From positions 1 to 20,470 of the IMG/VR virus record IMGVR_UViG_3300025769_001094: a DNA stretch of 20,470 nt. One strand, 5' to 3'. Both the position numbers and the translations under genes were made by a program. The stretch comes from a virus. Below are positions 2,873 to 17,486 of the stretch, piece after piece (positions within the stretch are counted from its first letter, which is position 1; each line of letters opens with the position of its first letter). The notes under the pieces were generated by a model. It saw nothing but the letters and a program-made list of their open reading frames with translations. It was not told the origin of the DNA and did not search any database.

Positions 2873-4540
2873 ATGGTAGGCTTTTCCCCATTAGCCTCTA
2901 GTACGCTGGGAGATGATGGGGGCGTAATTAATTACGAGTTGATCGCAAGTAATATTGCTGCTCAACCTGCCTTAATTTCCTCTGCAGCCCTTACGCAAGA
3001 CCACAACTTAGGTGTTGTAAGTTTTGTAACAGGTGCGCCTCTACTACAAACAACAAGTCTTACTCAAGATCATTCATTAACGAGTATAGCACTCCTATTT
3101 GGGACACCAATATTAGGTAGCCCAAGTGTAACACAAGAACATAGCCTACTGGTAACAAACCTAATTTCAGGTACACCAGAACTAGCTAATGTAAATGTTA
3201 CACAAGACCACGGTCTTACAGCATCAGGATTTATTCTAGGTTCTCCTACAGTATCCGATGCACCGATGGCAGAAGATGAGACATTCTCTGCACCATCCTT
3301 AGAGACTGGTAATGTTGTAGTCGAAGACACAAGTATCTCACAAGATCACAGTGTCACTGCAACAAATATAGTTTCTCTGACACCAGAGTTAATTAAAGCT
3401 GGTTTAACTCAAGATCACAACCTACAGCCTACAGAGTTTATCTCAGGTTCTCCACAAGTAGGTCAGTCTGGTCTAACAGAAAACTATAATTTACTTGCAA
3501 CTGGCTTCGTTACAGATACACCACAAGTTGATTTTGTAACCGCAATAGAGCAAGAGAATTTTACTGCAGACAACATCGTAACTGGCAACCCATTTACACA
3601 ATCTGCAGAACTGTCACAAGACCACAGCCTAAGCCCTGTGGGTATATTAACGCCTCTGCCCGATTTAGGTGAACCTGTTGATCCTAACGCAATCGTCGTC
3701 CAAGAAATTAAGGAAATAGAACAAATGTTTGGTGGCTGGCCCAGAAGAGCATATGAAGTCCCTGACGGACGACTGGTACAAGGCGAAAGAGAAATCGAAG
3801 CAACCTTCGGGGATAGAGTTTCGGTTGACCGTAAGGCTAAATCTCTAATCAAGTTTGGTAAGTCGGCTGATCTAGTTGCTGATACACTAGAGACCGTATG
3901 GACTGTCGGTGGTCACGAGACATACGTTACCGATAACACTATTGAGTATGTCTCTAGTTCCTCTGCAGCCGACACACAAACTATCAAAATAGAGTGTCAT
4001 ACAGTCTCAGGTACAGGTGCTGATACTAAGTTTACCTTCCTCGTACAAGAGGTAACACTAGATGGTCAGAACCCAGTAGCCCTAGATACTCCTGTAGCTC
4101 GTGTATCTCATGCATATAACACAAGTGGAACAGAACTTGTTGGTCGTGTAACAGTATACGAAAATACAACAGTGGTTGGTGGTGTACCATCAGACGAAAC
4201 TAAGATACACATTGACATTCCTCAAGGTCTTCAAGGATCACTCAAAGGTGCTACAACATTCTCAGATAGTGATTACTATATTCTCACTGGGGGCTTTGGC
4301 TCTGTAAGTAAGAAGCAAGAGGCTGCAGTAGACTTTTATTTAGAAGTTCGTACAGCAGGTGGTGTATTTATCCAACAAGCTGCAATTAGTGCAACTACTG
4401 GTGGCCCTTGGGACATCGACTTAGACCCTGCAGTTATCATCCCGAAAAATGCAGATGTTCGTATCACAGCAGAATCAGGTACAAATAATGCACATGTATT
4501 CGGAGTATTCAAAGGTTATCTCGCAAAGGTTCTTAACTAA
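2873..4540 (+). CDS. Repeat-containing structural protein (probable capsid or neck fibre)
   Basis: A 555-residue protein with two parts. Residues about 18-270 are tandem 23-residue repeats, the best units reading like TQDHNLxxxxFxxGxPxL. Ten units starting at residue 41 keep an exact period of 23, and a worn unit precedes them. Residues about 271-320 form a linker (IEQMFGGWPRRAY). Residues about 321-555 form a beta-rich domain (KFGKSADL, ETVWTVGGHETY, VSSSSAADTQTI, IIPKNADVRITAESGTNNA) that I recall as a recurrent conserved hypothetical in marine phages. No enzyme motif is visible. The ATG has AGGAG upstream (about 2861-2865). The stop overlaps the next ATG (TAATG). A trimeric fibre or decoration protein is likely. 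The attachment point on the virion is unknown. Confidence 0.62.
   Translation: MVGFSPLASSTLGDDGGVINYELIASNIAAQPALISSAALTQDHNLGVVSFVTGAPLLQTTSLTQDHSLTSIALLFGTPILGSPSVTQEHSLLVTNLISGTPELANVNVTQDHGLTASGFILGSPTVSDAPMAEDETFSAPSLETGNVVVEDTSISQDHSVTATNIVSLTPELIKAGLTQDHNLQPTEFISGSPQVGQSGLTENYNLLATGFVTDTPQVDFVTAIEQENFTADNIVTGNPFTQSAELSQDHSLSPVGILTPLPDLGEPVDPNAIVVQEIKEIEQMFGGWPRRAYEVPDGRLVQGEREIEATFGDRVSVDRKAKSLIKFGKSADLVADTLETVWTVGGHETYVTDNTIEYVSSSSAADTQTIKIECHTVSGTGADTKFTFLVQEVTLDGQNPVALDTPVARVSHAYNTSGTELVGRVTVYENTTVVGGVPSDETKIHIDIPQGLQGSLKGATTFSDSDYYILTGGFGSVSKKQEAAVDFYLEVRTAGGVFIQQAAISATTGGPWDIDLDPAVIIPKNADVRITAESGTNNAHVFGVFKGYLAKVLN
2993..3682 (+). repeat. Ten tandem 69-bp (23-residue) coding repeats
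   Basis: Units begin at residue 41 of the gene at 2873 and recur every 23 residues to residue 270 with no insertion or deletion. Consensus: T/S-Q-D/E-H at positions 1-4, L at 6, a large hydrophobic at 11, G at 14, P at 16 and a hydrophobic at 23. Units 5, 8 and 9 have lost the TQDH signature but keep the phase. A further worn unit occupies residues 18-40. The DNA has diverged far more than the protein pattern, so the array is old. Confidence 0.85.
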
Positions 4541-5721
4541 TGCCTAAAACAGCCCTCAAAAATAAGATGGAAGCCCACAATAAGAAGTCTAAGCATAAGG
4601 TAACTATGCGTATGCTAGAGGCTGTCTATGATCGTGGTGTTGGTGCATACCGTACAAACCCTGCTAGTGTTCGTCCTAACGTCAAGTCACCTGAACAGTG
4701 GGCTATGGCTCGTGTCAACAGTTTCCTGCGTATCGTAAGTGGCTCCAAGTCTGCTAACCACGATAAAGACCTACTACCTTCGTCGCATCCATCGTCGTCT
4801 AAGAAGAAGATGCTAAAGGCACAATATGCTAACGATGTCTTCACAACAGAGATGGAAGCACGTAGCCGTTCTATGGACATGGGTTGTGGTGGAGCTATCC
4901 ACGTACATGAGGTCGAAGGACAGGCCGTTTATATGCCATGTGGAAGCCACCAAGAGTATCTAGACTACTACCGTACCGAAGATGAGCAAGAAGACGCCTC
5001 AGTGGATCGCTTAGAGGCTCTCAGGGTCATTGTACAGGAAGTAATGAAAGAAGAATTTGCCAAGGCTGAATACCAAGGCGAAAAAGTAACTTTAAACAAG
5101 CCACGCAGATTGTCAGGTGGCAACAAAAAGTTTGAAGTGTTCGTTATGGATGGTGACAAAGTAAAACGAGTTACCTTTGGTGATCCTAACATGGAAATCC
5201 GTAGGGATAACCCAAAGGCTCGTGCAAACTTTAGATCACGCCATTCGTGTGATACTGCAACAGACAAAACCTCTGCTCGTTATTGGTCTTGTCGTATGTG
5301 GGAAGGAGGCACTAGCGTGTCTGAACTAACAAAATCAGTCGAGGGTCAAATCCTCAAAGCTGACGAAGAACAACGCATGGTCTATGGCTGGGCATCAGTA
5401 GTAACCGAAAAGGGTGAACCTGTAGTTGACCGCCAAGGCGATGTGATAGAACCTGAAACACTTGTTAAAGCTGTAAATAGCTTTATGGAACATGTGCGTG
5501 TAGGTAAAGAAATGCACAAAGGGGATCAGATTGGAGCAGTAATCCATTCTATGCCAGTCACTAAAGAGATTGGTGAGTCCCTTGGCATACAGAGTGACCG
5601 TGAAGGTTGGATCGTAGCGTTTAAAGTATATAACGATGACGTTTGGGCCAAGGTCAAATCTGGTGAATTAGCGGCCTTCTCTATTGGGGGTCGTGCAATC
5701 AAGGAGGACTACAGTGCCTAA
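4540..5721 (+). CDS. Multidomain prohead protease, XkdF-type serine protease at the C-terminus
   Basis: A 393-residue protein. Residues about 20-65 hold LEAVYDRGVGAYRTN and SPEQWAMARVNSFL, a phage domain of unknown role. Residues about 112-140 hold GCGGAIHVHE and MPCGSHQEY, and about 211-254 hold VTFGDPNMEIRRDNP, RSRHSCD and ARYWSCRMW; both have paired Cys and His. Residues about 268-386 match the XkdF (Peptidase_S78_2) protease family: MVYGWASVV, DRQGDVI, EMHKGDQIGAV, GWIVAFKVYNDDVWAKVKSG and FSIGG. The likely catalytic pair is H326 and S381. The enzyme matures the procapsid by cleaving scaffold and capsid precursors. The DELSLVDRPAN element that usually ends this family is missing and lies in the next gene. 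A strong internal in-frame start sits at 5317. The family call is firm; the roles of the N-terminal domains are not known. Confidence 0.82.
   Translation: MPKTALKNKMEAHNKKSKHKVTMRMLEAVYDRGVGAYRTNPASVRPNVKSPEQWAMARVNSFLRIVSGSKSANHDKDLLPSSHPSSSKKKMLKAQYANDVFTTEMEARSRSMDMGCGGAIHVHEVEGQAVYMPCGSHQEYLDYYRTEDEQEDASVDRLEALRVIVQEVMKEEFAKAEYQGEKVTLNKPRRLSGGNKKFEVFVMDGDKVKRVTFGDPNMEIRRDNPKARANFRSRHSCDTATDKTSARYWSCRMWEGGTSVSELTKSVEGQILKADEEQRMVYGWASVVTEKGEPVVDRQGDVIEPETLVKAVNSFMEHVRVGKEMHKGDQIGAVIHSMPVTKEIGESLGIQSDREGWIVAFKVYNDDVWAKVKSGELAAFSIGGRAIKEDYSA
5301..5319 (+). promoter_or_regulatory. Internal ribosome binding site and GTG start inside the protease gene
   Basis: GGAAGGAGG at 5301-5309 contains a full AAGGAGG anti-16S match, followed after 7 nt by GTG at 5317-5319. 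This GTG is codon 260 of the gene at 4540, in frame, exactly between the RYWSCRMW domain and the protease domain. Starting here would give a 134-residue free protease (5317-5721). Many starts in this window have weaker sites. Real use is inferred, not shown. Confidence 0.6.
5701..5716 (+). promoter_or_regulatory. Ribosome binding site deciding the scaffold gene start
   Basis: AAGGAGG at 5701-5707 precedes GTG 5714-5716 by 6 nt. The GTG overlaps the protease stop (TAA 5719-5721) by 8 nt, so re-initiation after protease translation is likely. A TTG at 5684 is in frame upstream but has no comparable site, so GTG 5714 is chosen. Confidence 0.75.
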
Positions 5722-6511
5722 TTTATTGAAACAGCTTGAACTGGATGAATTGTCCCTTGTGGATCGTCCTGCCAATGCACAGGCAATGGTCTCCTTGTTC
5801 AAGCGTGATGATTCCAATGGAGATAACATGGAACAAGAAGTAGACAAAATGTCAGATGACTTAAAAGCAAAACTGAAGCCATACATGGATAAAGGTATGT
5901 CTGAAGAAGATGCAATGAAAGCATATGAAATGGACATGAAGAAATCTGAAGCAGTAGAGATTGATGAGCTTGATATTGTTAAAGCTGAAAACGATGCTCT
6001 TAAAATTCAGAACGAAGACCTTCGTAAAGCTCTTATCGACAACGGCTTTGTAATCAAAGCTGACACAATCGAAAAGAAAGTTGAACCAGAATACATTGAG
6101 TACGAAGGTGAACAAATCAACAAAGCTGATGTACCTGCTGTAATTCTAAAAGCCTTAGAAGAAGCAGAGTTTGCAAAAGCTGATGCTGAACTAACAAAAC
6201 GTGCAACAGAAGCACTACCACACTTTGCAACAGACGTTGCTAAATCTCTAGTCGCAGAGTTTGGTGAAGTAGAATCTGTCATGGAATCACTGAAAGCTGC
6301 AGACGCAACTTTTGCTGAGACTATGGAAGAAGTTGGTAAATCAGACGCAGATGGCGAGTTTGCTACTGCTACTGATAAACTAGAGACCCTTGTTAAGTCT
6401 TACATGGACGACAACAAAATGAAGAAGAGTGACTACGCAAAAGCATACGCTGCCGTAGCTAAAACCGACGAAGGTAAAGCTCTTATTAACAAAAGCTATA
6501 AAGGGGAATAA
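5714..6511 (+). CDS. Probable capsid scaffolding protein carrying the protease C-terminal motif
   Basis: A 265-residue protein, start GTG 5714. Residues about 9-30 read LELDELSLVDRPANAQAM, which in XkdF/HK97-type proteases normally follows the SIGG motif at the C-terminus of the same chain. The rest is highly charged, Lys/Glu/Ala-rich and helical (ELDIVKAENDALKIQNEDLRK, split as ELDIVKAENDA and LKIQNEDLRK), with no Cys or Trp and likely coiled coil, typical of scaffolds. The position between protease and capsid genes fits a scaffold, which guides shell assembly and is then removed by the protease. An internal ATG at 5828 with TGGAG upstream could give a version without the protease motif. Alternatively this is the second half of a protease-scaffold polyprotein split by a frameshift. 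The scaffold role is inferred from context and composition. Confidence 0.65.
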   Translation: MPNLLKQLELDELSLVDRPANAQAMVSLFKRDDSNGDNMEQEVDKMSDDLKAKLKPYMDKGMSEEDAMKAYEMDMKKSEAVEIDELDIVKAENDALKIQNEDLRKALIDNGFVIKADTIEKKVEPEYIEYEGEQINKADVPAVILKALEEAEFAKADAELTKRATEALPHFATDVAKSLVAEFGEVESVMESLKAADATFAETMEEVGKSDADGEFATATDKLETLVKSYMDDNKMKKSDYAKAYAAVAKTDEGKALINKSYKGE

Positions 6512-6513
6512 TT

Positions 6514-6885
6514 ATGGCTGTAATGCAATCCCGTGACACACGGACATTCATTGCTGGCGAAGACCTATCGTCGGCGCAATTCAAATTCGTAACACTAGAA
6601 TCAGATGGTCAAGTAGACCTAGCTGACGCTGCAGGTGAGAACTGCATCGGTGTTTTGATTAACGACCCAGCGGCTGCAGAAGCAGCAACTGTTGTTATGT
6701 CTGGTAAAGTAATGGTAACTGCTGGCGGTACAATCGCTGCAGGTGCTGCTGTTGCTACAGACGCATCAGGTGACGCTGTAACAGCTTCGACAGGTAACAT
6801 CGTAATGGGTTACGCAACTGAGGCAGGTGTTGATGGTCAAATCATCGCTATCGAACTCATCCAAGGCGGCAACGCTGCGGCGTAA
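6514..6885 (+). CDS. Capsid decoration (cement) protein, DUF2190-like
   Basis: A 123-residue protein rich in Ala, Val, Gly and Thr, starting MAVMQSRDTRTF and followed by GEDLSSAQFKFVTLESDGQV and ENCIGVLINDPAAAEAATVV. It then has GGTIAAGAAVATDASGDAV and a final GQIIAIELI strand. This beta-barrel-like pattern and the position just before the major capsid gene match small decoration proteins of the DUF2190 type, which bind the outside of expanded capsids and stabilise them against DNA pressure. It starts 2 nt after the scaffold stop, with AAGGGGAA upstream as ribosome binding site. Decoration and capsid genes are often co-translated at high level. A different small head protein is possible but less likely. 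Confidence 0.7.
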   Translation: MAVMQSRDTRTFIAGEDLSSAQFKFVTLESDGQVDLADAAGENCIGVLINDPAAAEAATVVMSGKVMVTAGGTIAAGAAVATDASGDAVTASTGNIVMGYATEAGVDGQIIAIELIQGGNAAA

Positions 6886-6909: not shown

Positions 6910-7890
6910 ATGCCATTGCTAACACCAAATTCGGTACATATTGATCAGCCGTTGACAAACCTGACCATTGCTTATGTACAAGACCAAACAAACTTTATCG
7001 CTGATAAGGTTTTCCCAACAGTAGGCGTAGACAAACAGTCTGACAAATACTACATCTATGACCGTGACAACATGAACCGTTCAGGTGATGTTAAGGCTCT
7101 TGCACCACGCACAGAAGTCAACCGCATCGGTATGTCACTATCAAACGCATCATTCTATGCTGATGTCTATGGACTAGGTATGGACTTCGATCAGCAAACT
7201 CTTGCTAACGAAGATGCAGCACTAGACATTCGTGCAGCAGGTGCGCAGACACTAACTAACCGCCTATTGATCCACCGTGAAGAGCAGTTTGCAACAAACT
7301 TCTTCGCAGCTTCAATCTGGGGTTCAGAGTCAACACCATCAAACTTGTGGTCAGACTACACAAATGGTACACCAATCGCAGACGTAACAACTGCTCGTCG
7401 TACTATGCAGCTTAAGTCTGGTGGCTTCAAGCCAAACACAATGGTTGTCGGTAAAGAGGTGCGTGACATCTTGATCAACCACCCAGACATTCTAGCACGT
7501 TTGAACGGTGGTGCAACTGTATCAAACACTGCATTGATCACCAACGCTAAGTTGGCTGAAATCTTTGAAGTAGAAAACTTCTACGTCATGGAAGCAGTGA
7601 AAAACACATCTGTAGAAGGTGTTGCAGAAAGCAATGCGTTCATCGGTGGTAAACATGCTCTATTGGTACACTCACCAGCAGGTGCAGGTCTAATGACACC
7701 AGCAGCAGGTGTAACATTTGCATGGAACAACCTATCAGGTGTCAACAACTTGGGCGTAACTGTAGAGTCATTCTCTGACGATGCACTTAAGCGTCAACAA
7801 GTTGCAGAACACATCCAAGTTAAAATGTCATACGACATGAAAGTCACTGGCGCAGACTTGGGTTACTTCTTTGACACAGTTGTTGCGTAA
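6910..7890 (+). CDS. Major capsid protein
   Basis: A 326-residue protein of the usual size for a major head subunit, positioned after protease, scaffold and decoration genes. It starts MPLLTPNSVHIDQPLTN, then NFIADKVFPTVGVDKQSDKY, a pattern typical of E-type/HK97-fold capsid proteins of marine siphophages. Later segments include FKPNTMVVGKEVRDIL, which fits the A-domain strand and helix region, and AEHIQVKMSYDMKVTGADLGY near the C-terminus. There is no long N-terminal delta domain, consistent with a separate scaffold gene. AGGAAGG lies upstream (6893-6901 region) with a longish spacer. A hairpin just after the stop (7901-7924) may set transcript stability. The call is by order, size and motif; no structure was checked. 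Confidence 0.85.
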   Translation: MPLLTPNSVHIDQPLTNLTIAYVQDQTNFIADKVFPTVGVDKQSDKYYIYDRDNMNRSGDVKALAPRTEVNRIGMSLSNASFYADVYGLGMDFDQQTLANEDAALDIRAAGAQTLTNRLLIHREEQFATNFFAASIWGSESTPSNLWSDYTNGTPIADVTTARRTMQLKSGGFKPNTMVVGKEVRDILINHPDILARLNGGATVSNTALITNAKLAEIFEVENFYVMEAVKNTSVEGVAESNAFIGGKHALLVHSPAGAGLMTPAAGVTFAWNNLSGVNNLGVTVESFSDDALKRQQVAEHIQVKMSYDMKVTGADLGYFFDTVVA

Positions 7891-11961: not shown

Positions 11962-14900
11962 CTTAATCGAATTAGATGTAGTAGTTAGAAATAGGGGTTT
12001 GAAAGAATCCTTATCTACTGTATCTCGCCTAGAGCGTGAGATAATCAAAGCTACTAAAGCCCTTGATAATAATGCTATCTCCCAAAGTCGATATGAAAAA
12101 GTCTTACTGTCTGCTAAACGACAGTATGAAGCACTTGGCGTATCTAGTCAAAAGGCCACTGCAGCCGTAAGAAAGTTTGCAGATTCACAAAGACAACTAA
12201 CAGGTTCTCTTGGTAATTCTACTAAAGCCTTAAAGCAACATACAGAAGCTCAAATGGCGGCGACAAAAGCCTCTAATCGTATGGGTGTCGTTACTCAACA
12301 GGCTGGCTATCAAGTTTCTGACTTTATTGTTCAGGTACAATCAGGGACTAACCCTTTTGTTGCGTTTTCTCAACAGGCATCACAGTTAGCAGGGGTCTTG
12401 CCTCTTGTTGCTAGTAATATTGGATTAACAACAACTGCAGCTATCGCCCTGTCTGCTGCACTTGGTATAGCAATACCTTTGATTGGTGCAATAGGTGCTG
12501 CTTATTTAGTTAGCAGACAAAGAGCTAAAGAGGCTGCTGAAGGTACAGACACTTTTGCTGAGTCATTAAAAGATGCGCAACAAGCTAGTCAAGATTTAAG
12601 GGATGAATTAAAACTTCTAGCCAGTGGCTATAAAGATGTTTCTGAAGCTGCATTTGCTGAAGCGGTAGCTCAAGCAGAAGCTGCTGTTGATGCTGCTCAA
12701 AAGCGTCTAGATAATGCAAGAGGTATAGCTCAGAAAGGTGCTAGAGGTAACTTAAAGGCTGCTGAAGAAGAGCTTAGGATTGCCGAAGAACAGTTAGCAA
12801 CTTACAGACAGAGACGGTCTTTTCTAGAACAAGAGTCTGCCTTTTATGATGACATTTTAGGGTCTGCTGAAGGTCTTGCTGCTCAAGAGGAAGCTCTTAA
12901 TGATATATTTGAAGCTAGACTTGGTACTATAGATGATACTGCTAATAACTATGAGGACATCTTAGGGTCTGTTGAAGGTCTTGCTGCTCAAGAAGAAGCA
13001 TTAAATCAGCTCTATGAAGCTCGTCTAGGAACTATAGATGACACATATAATAATTACGAAGACATCTTAGGGTCTGCTGAAGGTCTTGCTGCTCAAGAAC
13101 AAGCGTTAAACGATTTATTTGAAGCTAGACTAGGGACTATAGACGACACTGCTAATAACTACAAAGACATTTTAGGTTCAGAGGAAGGTCTACAGGAAGC
13201 AGTAGACGTTCTCAACCAGATGTACCAAGACCGTTTAGATAAACTTCAAGCTACAGCAGACGCTTACGACGACATACTAGGCTCAGAGGCTGGACTATTA
13301 GCTGCTGAAAAGGCACGATTGGCTCTTACAATGGTAGGAGATTCTGGTTACGCAGGTGGTCGTGGTGGTGACCCAAGAAAGTTTGCAGAAGCATATTTTG
13401 ATGCTTTAGAGCAAATTAAAGAACAAGAGGAAGCAAGAGCAGAAGCTGCAGAAAAAGCTAGTGATAAAGCTAAAAAGGCTTATGAGAAAGCACAAAAGGC
13501 AGCAGAAAAACTTCGTAAAGAATTAGAAGGCCCAATGGTCAATGCTATCGGTAGTGTATCAGATGCCTTTGGTGACTTCATAGCTCGTGGTCTACAGGAC
13601 TTCAAAGGTTTCGTAAGTCAAATTCTTGGTTCTTTCCAGAACATGATTGCACAGATGATTGCAACGGCTGCTCGTAATCGTATTATGATTAGTATGGGTA
13701 TGGGTGGCGCAGGTACTGTCGCAGGAACCACATCTGCTTTCGCTGGCCCATTGGGCAGTATCATGGGTACAACTGGAGCAGGTGGTACGGCTGGAACTGG
13801 TTTTCTAGGAACTTTAGCTGGTGGTGCATCTGCCCTTGGTAGTGGTTTCATGGCAGGTGTCCAAGGGTTCATGGGTGGCGGTTTTGGTGGTTATATGAAC
13901 ACCCTTTCTGCTACAGCTCTTAACGCTGGCCCTATGGCTACCATCGGTGCTGCTTTACCTGCTGTACTTGCTGTCGCTGCAGTTATCGGACTACTAACCA
14001 AGAAAACTAAGCTACTCGACAGTGGACTAAGAGCTACTGTTGAGGGCTTTGACGTAGCTATTCAAACCTTCCAAGTTACACAAACCAGTCGCTTGTTTGG
14101 TCTACTAAAGGGTAGAAAGAAACTTGGCTTTGCTGATGCACCTGCAGAGTTAGCTGACCCACTGATAGAAGCTATCGGTGACATGCAACAGAGTATTGTT
14201 GATGCTGCTGGTACTCTAGGTATTGGTGCCTCTGCATTTGATGACTTTAGCTATCAGTTTAAGTTATCACTTATGGGTCTAACTGAAGAGCAGAAGCTAG
14301 AAAAGATCAACGAAGAAATCACTAAGATGGGTGATAGCTTTGCTTCTTTGACTGGTCACTTTGAGACTATGAATGAGCTTCTAGCTGCTGCTCAACAACG
14401 GTATGAGCTAGAGACAAGACTTCTAGGTTTACTCAACGACCAATCTGCTCTACTAACTCGTCAAAGGGAATTAGAACGTGCATCTGTAGATGAATTAAAC
14501 AGAAGCACACTTAACCAAATCTATGCTTTAGAAGATGCTTACGGTGCTGTGAACTCCGCATTTGCTACGGTACAAAGGTCTATAGAAGCTCGTAAGACTA
14601 AGATTACTAATTCCTTTAACGAGATTATAGAAACCCTTCAAGCTCGTGTTCAAGCTGCTAGTGATGCTGTAGGTGTAAGTCGTGGTATCTTAAGTTCCCT
14701 TGAGGGTGCTTCTGGTGACTCTGGTATGACTAGAGTTTCTGGTATGGCTTACCTACGTAGTTTACGTGGTGCTTCTCGTATCACTGACCAGAAGAAACTA
14801 GATGATGCTCTACAGGCTATTGCTGATCCATCTCAGGACTTGTACACTAACTTTGTCGATTATCAACGTGACTTCCAAGACCAATCTAATTTAATACGTG

Positions 14901-16640: not shown

Positions 16641-17486
16641 ATGGCATACCCACCCATTACCACACTACCTGCCGCACCTAGTAGACAAGACCCCACGAAC
16701 TTTGCTGATGAAGCTGATGCATTTTTGGGTGCATTACCTGACTTCGGTGATGAAGCCAATGCTCTTGGTAGTTATCTAGATGGTGTAGCTTCAGATGTAG
16801 ACACAGATGCTACCTCTGCTGCCGCTAGTGCTGCTGCTGCTGCTGCCAGTGCTACAACTGCAGTAAATGCAGCTAATGCACAAGTATGGGTATCAGGTGC
16901 TTCTTATGATGCTGGCGATGTTGTCTACAGCCCTGTTACTTATCAAACTTATCGTGCTATTACTACACACTCTGGAGAGACTACAGACCCATCTAGTGAT
17001 GCTACTAATTGGGTACAGTTAGGTGGTATTGATGGACTTACAGCTACTGCTGCAGAACTTAACTATAATGATATTACAACACTTGGTCTAACAGAAGCAT
17101 CTAAGACAGTAACTGCTGATGCTAATGGTGTCGTCACTTTTGATAATGGTATATCAGAAGAGTTTACAGCAGTTACTTCTACATCTAATGCTACCACTGT
17201 AGATTTACAAGATGGTACAAACTTCAGTCACACTTTAACTGAGAACACTACGTTCACATTCAGCAACCCTGCAGCCTCTGGCAAAGTATCTAGCTTTACA
17301 ATAAAGATAGTTCAAGATGCTAGTGCATCAGGTTTTACTGTAACTTGGCCTACTTCAGTTGATTGGCCTTCAGCTACAGCCCCGACTTTAACCGCAACTG
17401 CATCTGCAGTAGACTATTTTGTGTTTATCACTCATGATGGTGGTACTACATATTATGGATTTACTGCTGGTCAAGCACTAGCATAA
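16641..17486 (+). CDS. Tail fibre protein with carbohydrate-binding-like module
   Basis: A 281-residue protein. Residues 1-45 (LPAAPSRQDPTNFADEADAF, LGALPDFGDEAN) are a common attachment start of phage fibres. Residues about 56-80 are a low-complexity Ala/Ser/Thr coil. Residues about 82-128 (VWVSGASYDAGDVVYSP ... ATNWVQLG) resemble a chitin-binding-type module, like that in the gene before. Residues 134-145 carry TATAAELNY. Residues 177-281 are the beta domain shared with the gene at 2283. The likely job is host recognition or linking further fibres. The ATG is one base after the previous stop region; AGAAGGA is upstream (16624-16630). Confidence 0.75.
   Translation: MAYPPITTLPAAPSRQDPTNFADEADAFLGALPDFGDEANALGSYLDGVASDVDTDATSAAASAAAAAASATTAVNAANAQVWVSGASYDAGDVVYSPVTYQTYRAITTHSGETTDPSSDATNWVQLGGIDGLTATAAELNYNDITTLGLTEASKTVTADANGVVTFDNGISEEFTAVTSTSNATTVDLQDGTNFSHTLTENTTFTFSNPAASGKVSSFTIKIVQDASASGFTVTWPTSVDWPSATAPTLTATASAVDYFVFITHDGGTTYYGFTAGQALA
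17169..17483 (+). repeat. Duplicated 105-residue fibre domain, tail-side copy
   Basis: This segment encodes residues 177-281 of the fibre gene at 16641 and is the partner of 2541-2855. Both copies sit at the C-terminus of their genes and end DGGT..YGFT.GQAL, each followed shortly by a large fibre-like gene. The protein is conserved but third positions are scrambled. Confidence 0.8.

Follow-up and report, generated by a model that had tools for sequence, protein, structure and literature searches.

The window, by which we mean the whole stretch of DNA analysed here, is a 20,470-base IMG/VR-type virus record that probably comes from a marine phage. Its genes run in the order portal, several fibre-like genes, protease, downstream gene, cement protein, major capsid protein and tail genes. 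The nearest isolate is Roseobacter phage CRP-6, with 85-87% identity in the protease domain and 67% in the downstream protein. The features of the locus are given below, where A1 denotes the alignment of split proteases and A7 the alignment behind the fusion model described later.

108-1439, portal gene
4540-5721, plus strand, prohead protease gene of XkdF/S78_2 type (393 aa)
5317-5718, plus strand, protease domain used in alignments A1 and A7
5515-5517, plus strand, presumed catalytic His codon (in EMH); H67, invariant in A1 and A7, equivalent to HK97 gp4 H65
5680-5682, plus strand, presumed catalytic Ser codon (in FSIGG); S122, invariant in A1 and A7, equivalent to HK97 gp4 S114
5701-5707, plus strand, Shine-Dalgarno sequence (AAGGAGG) for the downstream gene, within the coding sequence of the protease C-terminus
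5714-5721, plus strand, 8-nt start/stop overlap GTGCCTAA
5714-6511, plus strand, downstream gene (265 aa), probable scaffold, with the displaced protease strand at its N-terminus
5735-5776, plus strand, displaced motif LELDELSLVDRPAN, residues 8-21 of the downstream protein
5747-5749, plus strand, codon of E12, proposed as the third catalytic residue or as a key residue of the strand
6514-6885, plus strand, cement/decoration protein gene (PF09956, E 1.3e-8)
6910-7890, plus strand, major capsid protein gene (phrog_1005, E 1.1e-74; PF03864)

The protease gene thus sits between the portal and major capsid genes, as is the case for S78/S78_2 prohead proteases. Elsewhere in the window, an ORF in the portal-protease interval (2873-3700) opens with roughly twelve imperfect copies of a repeat, (S/T)QDHSL...G.P, and a tape-measure-like gene holds a 105-bp unit (35 aa, DILGSAEGLAAQEEALN...) in 3.2 tandem copies at 12851-13191. 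The genes at 2283-2858 and 16641-17486 have a near-identical C-terminal segment in common (TSTSNATTVD...FSHTLTENTTFTFSNP.ASG) and form a paralogous fibre-like pair flanking the head and tail genes.

The protease matched PF14550, its closest Pfam family, at residues 270-388 (E 2.6e-17, 63.4 bits against a cut-off of 24), and it also matched several PHROG head maturation proteases. The window His and Ser were tied to HK97 gp4 H65 and S114 by alignment through a profile of single-chain proteases (A6). The gene is laid out with DUF5824-like and DUF5754-like accessory regions on the N-terminal side and the protease domain on the C-terminal side. The accessory regions span the N-terminal two thirds of the gene (4540-5316); relatives of the DUF5754-like region are separate genes in many marine and Salinibacter phages, and the CRP-6 protease is without the first accessory region. 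A possible internal start, the GTG at 5317 after AAGGAGG (5304-5319), would yield a candidate protease-only product. This start is kept in near relatives only and lost in others, and we dropped it as a conserved feature.

The protease chain ends in FSIGGRAIKEDYSA*, nine residues after SIGG, where the original prediction had counted eleven. Tail lengths read from the sequences themselves showed that split proteases usually stop 10-16 residues past the Ser. The strand with the third conserved residue is absent from the protease chain and is encoded in the next gene; by lacking this strand in the same chain, the window protease is a split variant and an atypical member of S78/S78_2. The downstream ORF, which begins MPNLLKQLELDELSLVDRPAN, starts at a GTG (5714-5716) in the +1 frame relative to the protease, whose TAA stop lies at 5719-5721. 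These coordinates confirm that the motif opens the next gene, in frame +1 and across an 8-nt overlap, behind an AAGGAGG-GTG of its own. Shine-Dalgarno-like matches of at least 5 nt preceded 87% of 237 related downstream starts, compared with 6% of random sites, the former figure being an upper estimate since the starts were picked with a Shine-Dalgarno score.

The sole Pfam match of residues 5-33 of the downstream protein was to the C-terminal positions 131-159 of PF04586 (Peptidase_S78), at an E-value of 0.013-0.02 that lies below the gathering score; 27 of 46 related downstream N-termini also matched this family. Its homologues include the downstream genes of the RDJL group (phrog_24785, E 2.9e-10), and in CRP-6 the homologous protein matches the portion of phrog_80 that comes after the protease (E 0.0011). 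Its relatives carry an unknown-function label in PHROG, and a comparison with curated scaffold families gave no match, the only matches being to unknown-function families and to the post-protease part of phrog_80 and phrog_21715. On the basis of its position between the protease and the cement and capsid genes, of these weak matches to the post-protease part of single-chain families, and of analogy, we propose that the downstream gene probably encodes the scaffold protein.

The distribution of the split was examined in a full set of 405 loci, assembled from an IMG/VR scan, profile scans and annotated phages, with junctions counted as distinct sequences after removal of repeated contigs. The IMG/VR scan with the protease returned 80 close relatives, and the gene is split in every one whose contig covers the site. 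Over the split group as a whole, the motif lies in a downstream gene at 195 of 199 distinct scorable junctions (window-type 118/118, RDJL-type 69/73, others 8/8; the motif was not found at the remaining four RDJL-type loci). Relatives with one continuous frame were sought in this group, as the original prediction had suggested, and at none of the 199 junctions did the motif follow the Ser in the protease chain. The same arrangement is present in near-identical and distant relatives from independent samples, in the isolates CRP-6, RDJL Phi 1, Mulvp2, Carvaje, KPP23, RHph_Y60 and Vibrio 1.089, and in prophages of GTDB genomes (for example one Ruminiclostridium MAG and one Dehalococcoidia MAG), in agreement with the earlier preference for a real split with re-initiation.

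Outside the split group the element occupies other positions. In single-chain proteases of the BillNye/Trina type it follows the Ser in the same chain (81/81 distinct junctions). Among the PBSX-type XkdF loci (L338-L405), all 67 whose N-terminus is complete carry it ahead of the protease domain, as if the chain had been circularly permuted relative to HK97 gp4. The expectation that SIGG is followed by the motif in one chain therefore holds for HK97-type and BillNye-type proteases but fails for PBSX-type XkdF. A tree built from 63 protease domains has a branch (94/80) with the 40 main split rows on one side; across this tree, the element must have changed position no fewer than five times. Two further split phages, Rhizobium phage RHph_Y1_11 and Pseudomonas phage KIL4, fall on the XkdF side, KIL4 being a long branch of uncertain placement.

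The split protease carries the label 'DNA methyltransferase' in RDJL Phi 1 (gp71, positions 1777-2175 of locus L083), in several Vibrio phages and in PHROG 1530. By its sequence, the labelled protein is a protease of the XkdF type that retains both His and Ser, and the label is apparently a misannotation that has spread.

To relate the two pieces to single-chain enzymes, we compared profiles of the split protease (A1), the single-chain proteases (A6) and the downstream N-termini (A8, 46 rows). A1 aligned to A6 columns 5-117 (E 1.2e-15) and A8 to A6 columns 132-165 (E 2.3e-8); A8 also aligned to HK97 gp4 138-166 (E 4e-4). A6 and HK97 gp4 aligned through the whole region, which placed H57, S111 and E141 of the former on H65, S114 and E141 of the latter. 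Similarly, in the single-chain family phrog_21715 the window protease covered positions 20-110 and the downstream gene the next stretch, 120-327 (E 0.0015), and phrog_80 was matched by the protease at 14-343 and, weakly, by the downstream gene at 353-537 (E 0.054). By these comparisons the two pieces are homologous to consecutive parts of one enzyme. The resemblance of the motif to a protease C-terminal element, first proposed from the window alone, is thereby borne out, both by the PF04586 match and by the match of A8 to the single-chain profile.

Conservation of the element centers on a few positions. E12, S14, V16, A24 and K30 are invariant in all 46 rows of A8 and all lie inside the motif, the residues after it show no conservation, and these five positions are also conserved in chains that carry the element and the protease together. 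At the first motif position a Glu is present in 82 of 82 single-chain sequences, in 150 of 153 sequences of the window group (the other three being unscored) and in 75 of 83 of the RDJL group. The RDJL-group exceptions have F, K, A or I, indicating that the Glu is not strictly required. XkdF has a His at this position in 61 of 67 sequences, and His is likewise the third catalytic residue of herpesvirus assemblin. E12 of the window aligns with HK97 gp4 E141, which lies 27 residues past the Ser. In a published alignment of T4-type proteases, the triad consists of a His, a Ser and an Asp 25 residues past the Ser (SPN3US gp245 H77, S153 and D178; PMC5694885). From these alignments we propose, with moderate confidence, that this Glu of the downstream protein serves as the third catalytic residue.

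To place the cut in a fold, we used AlphaFold models of a natural single-chain relative (L262, the first row of A6) and of a window fusion. In the L262 model, Ser111 lies in a strand at 107-124 and Glu141 in a strand at 129-146; block confidence is 90 for the first and 75 for the second, and low past residue 150. The positions of these two strands put the cut at the turn of a predicted beta-hairpin, and the ends of split proteases, 10-16 residues after the Ser, coincide with the end of the modelled Ser strand. The best PDB match to this model over its whole length was the T4 protease gp21 (probability 1.00, TM 0.46-0.49). By sequence, T4 gp21 gave no match to A6, and a search for a solved S78 structure found none.

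For the window fusion, the two frames were joined in silico by one four-base step that altered residues at the junction only, and the alignment (A7) combined protease relatives with three natural gene pairs translated through the stop codon. The protease domain was modelled confidently, with most of residues 11-120 above 85, and its best PDB match was HCMV protease (probability 0.84, E 0.12), a match consistent with an assemblin-like fold. The motif region, covered by four rows of the alignment, had a pLDDT of about 32-36 and its strand was left unplaced. The suggestion of a two-subunit protease gains from the homology of both pieces to consecutive parts of an enzyme; the fused model speaks neither for nor against strand complementation.

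We consider it fairly likely that the locus encodes an old two-gene protease whose last strand is given in trans by a scaffold-like protein. An alternative, which we judge unlikely, is that the element, while homologous to the protease strand, has taken on another role, such as a capsid docking tag, a scaffold dimerisation strand or a cleavage site, and that the split protease folds and works alone. The confident prediction of the window protease domain without the motif, the replacement of the Glu in a few split relatives and the fact that the Pfam XkdF model PF14550 stops ahead of the motif would all be consistent with such a change of role. However, PF14550 ends early because XkdF carries the element at its N-terminus. 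In addition, the invariance of E12, S14, V16, A24 and K30 across 46 diverse downstream genes with variable residues beyond, and the retention of these same residues when the element is in the protease chain, argue against a new role.

The geometry of the junction bears on two further explanations. Using starts picked by a scoring rule, we found overlaps of 8 nt (n=68), 1 nt (n=22), 4 nt (n=18), 11 nt (n=14), 14 nt (n=3) and 23 nt (n=1), and gaps of 0-4 nt (n=42), 13-47 nt (n=7) and more than 100 nt (n=15), among 190 distinct sequences. At three loci (L144, L146 and L155) the protease pieces are separated by a gene that bears an HNH-like HVDHIVPL...GLHVPWNLQVLP motif and is inserted exactly at the split, like homing endonucleases. 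Other loci have different small genes between the protease and the downstream gene.

A programmed +1 frameshift, in which a protease-scaffold fusion would be made in small amounts alongside the two individual products, would fit the +1 frame and 8-nt overlap seen in the window and many of its relatives. The frame and spacing of the junction are not conserved, however, and whole genes can intervene; this free variation excludes a conserved shift site. By our reasoning GCC-TAA would also re-pair poorly in the +1 frame, and we ruled out the fusion raised in the original prediction as highly improbable. The third option raised there, a one-base sequence or assembly error in the record that broke a continuous protease-scaffold gene, has nothing in the window to recommend it and a negligible chance of being correct, as it is excluded by the same variation and by nine relatives from other samples that, at 96-98% identity, share the junction and reading frame of the window, with no continuous relative in the group. 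One relative, L063, resembles such an error: it has 75 nt from SIGG to the motif compared with 74 in its siblings, the extra base lying in an A run past the protease stop and ahead of the motif (about 4185-4210 of L063), which is probably an indel error in that contig.

Returning to the two-gene protease with a strand supplied in trans, we propose the following model. The enzyme is divided over two genes at the predicted beta-hairpin turn, with the upstream gene encoding the protease domain with its His and its Ser strand, and the downstream gene, most likely the scaffold, opening with the partner strand ELSLVD.PAN and its conserved Glu, which would probably stand in place of the third catalytic residue. 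The genes have separate translation signals, and the two proteins would be translated separately, the downstream one from its own strong start overlapping the stop of the first gene. Within the growing procapsid, the N-terminal strand of the scaffold may pair with the Ser strand of a protease molecule, which would both recruit the protease to the scaffold and complete the enzyme, such that cleavage of scaffold and capsid protein would begin only inside the assembled shell. More tentatively, a widespread group of tailed phages may use a split-enzyme switch of this kind, in which the scaffold supplies the last strand and the third catalytic residue and the protease gains activity only by binding scaffold inside the procapsid.

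For tailed phages and herpesviruses, a general question is how the procapsid protease is brought into the shell and held inactive until assembly is complete. Donation of the last strand by the scaffold would make recruitment and activation a single event. Strand donation would also explain why the element occurs at three positions in the superfamily (after the protease, before it and in the next gene), as well as why split proteases such as that of RDJL Phi 1 are poorly annotated. We found no description of a split XkdF/S78 protease in the open-access literature, which was the scope of our search. The enzyme family itself is known, and its arrangement over two genes, with the last strand encoded in the second, seems to be undescribed though widespread.

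Several known systems can be set beside the window. HK97 gp4 (MEROPS S78, PF04586) is alike in fold by profile, and its His65, Ser114 and Glu141 align with the window His, Ser and downstream Glu12, the last through the single-chain profile; in HK97, however, the protease is one continuous chain and the scaffold is a domain of the capsid protein, whereas the window uses two genes. The PBSX-like XkdF proteases (PF14550) share the portable element with the window but carry it N-terminally in the same chain, where most have His for Glu. The best structural matches are T4 gp21 for the single-chain relative and herpesvirus assemblin (HCMV protease) for the window model, but both are single-chain enzymes. 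The single-chain protease-scaffold proteins of the Streptomyces phage BillNye and Rhodococcus phage Trina type (phrog_80 and phrog_21715) are collinear with the two window genes joined end to end and, unlike the window, have no gene break. The phages RDJL Phi 1 and Phi 2, CRP-6, Klebsiella Carvaje, Pseudomonas KPP23 and Rhizobium RHph_Y60, together with the Vibrio phages, are split at the same place as the window, but differ from it in junction spacing and frame and, in most cases, have a longer scaffold-like protein.
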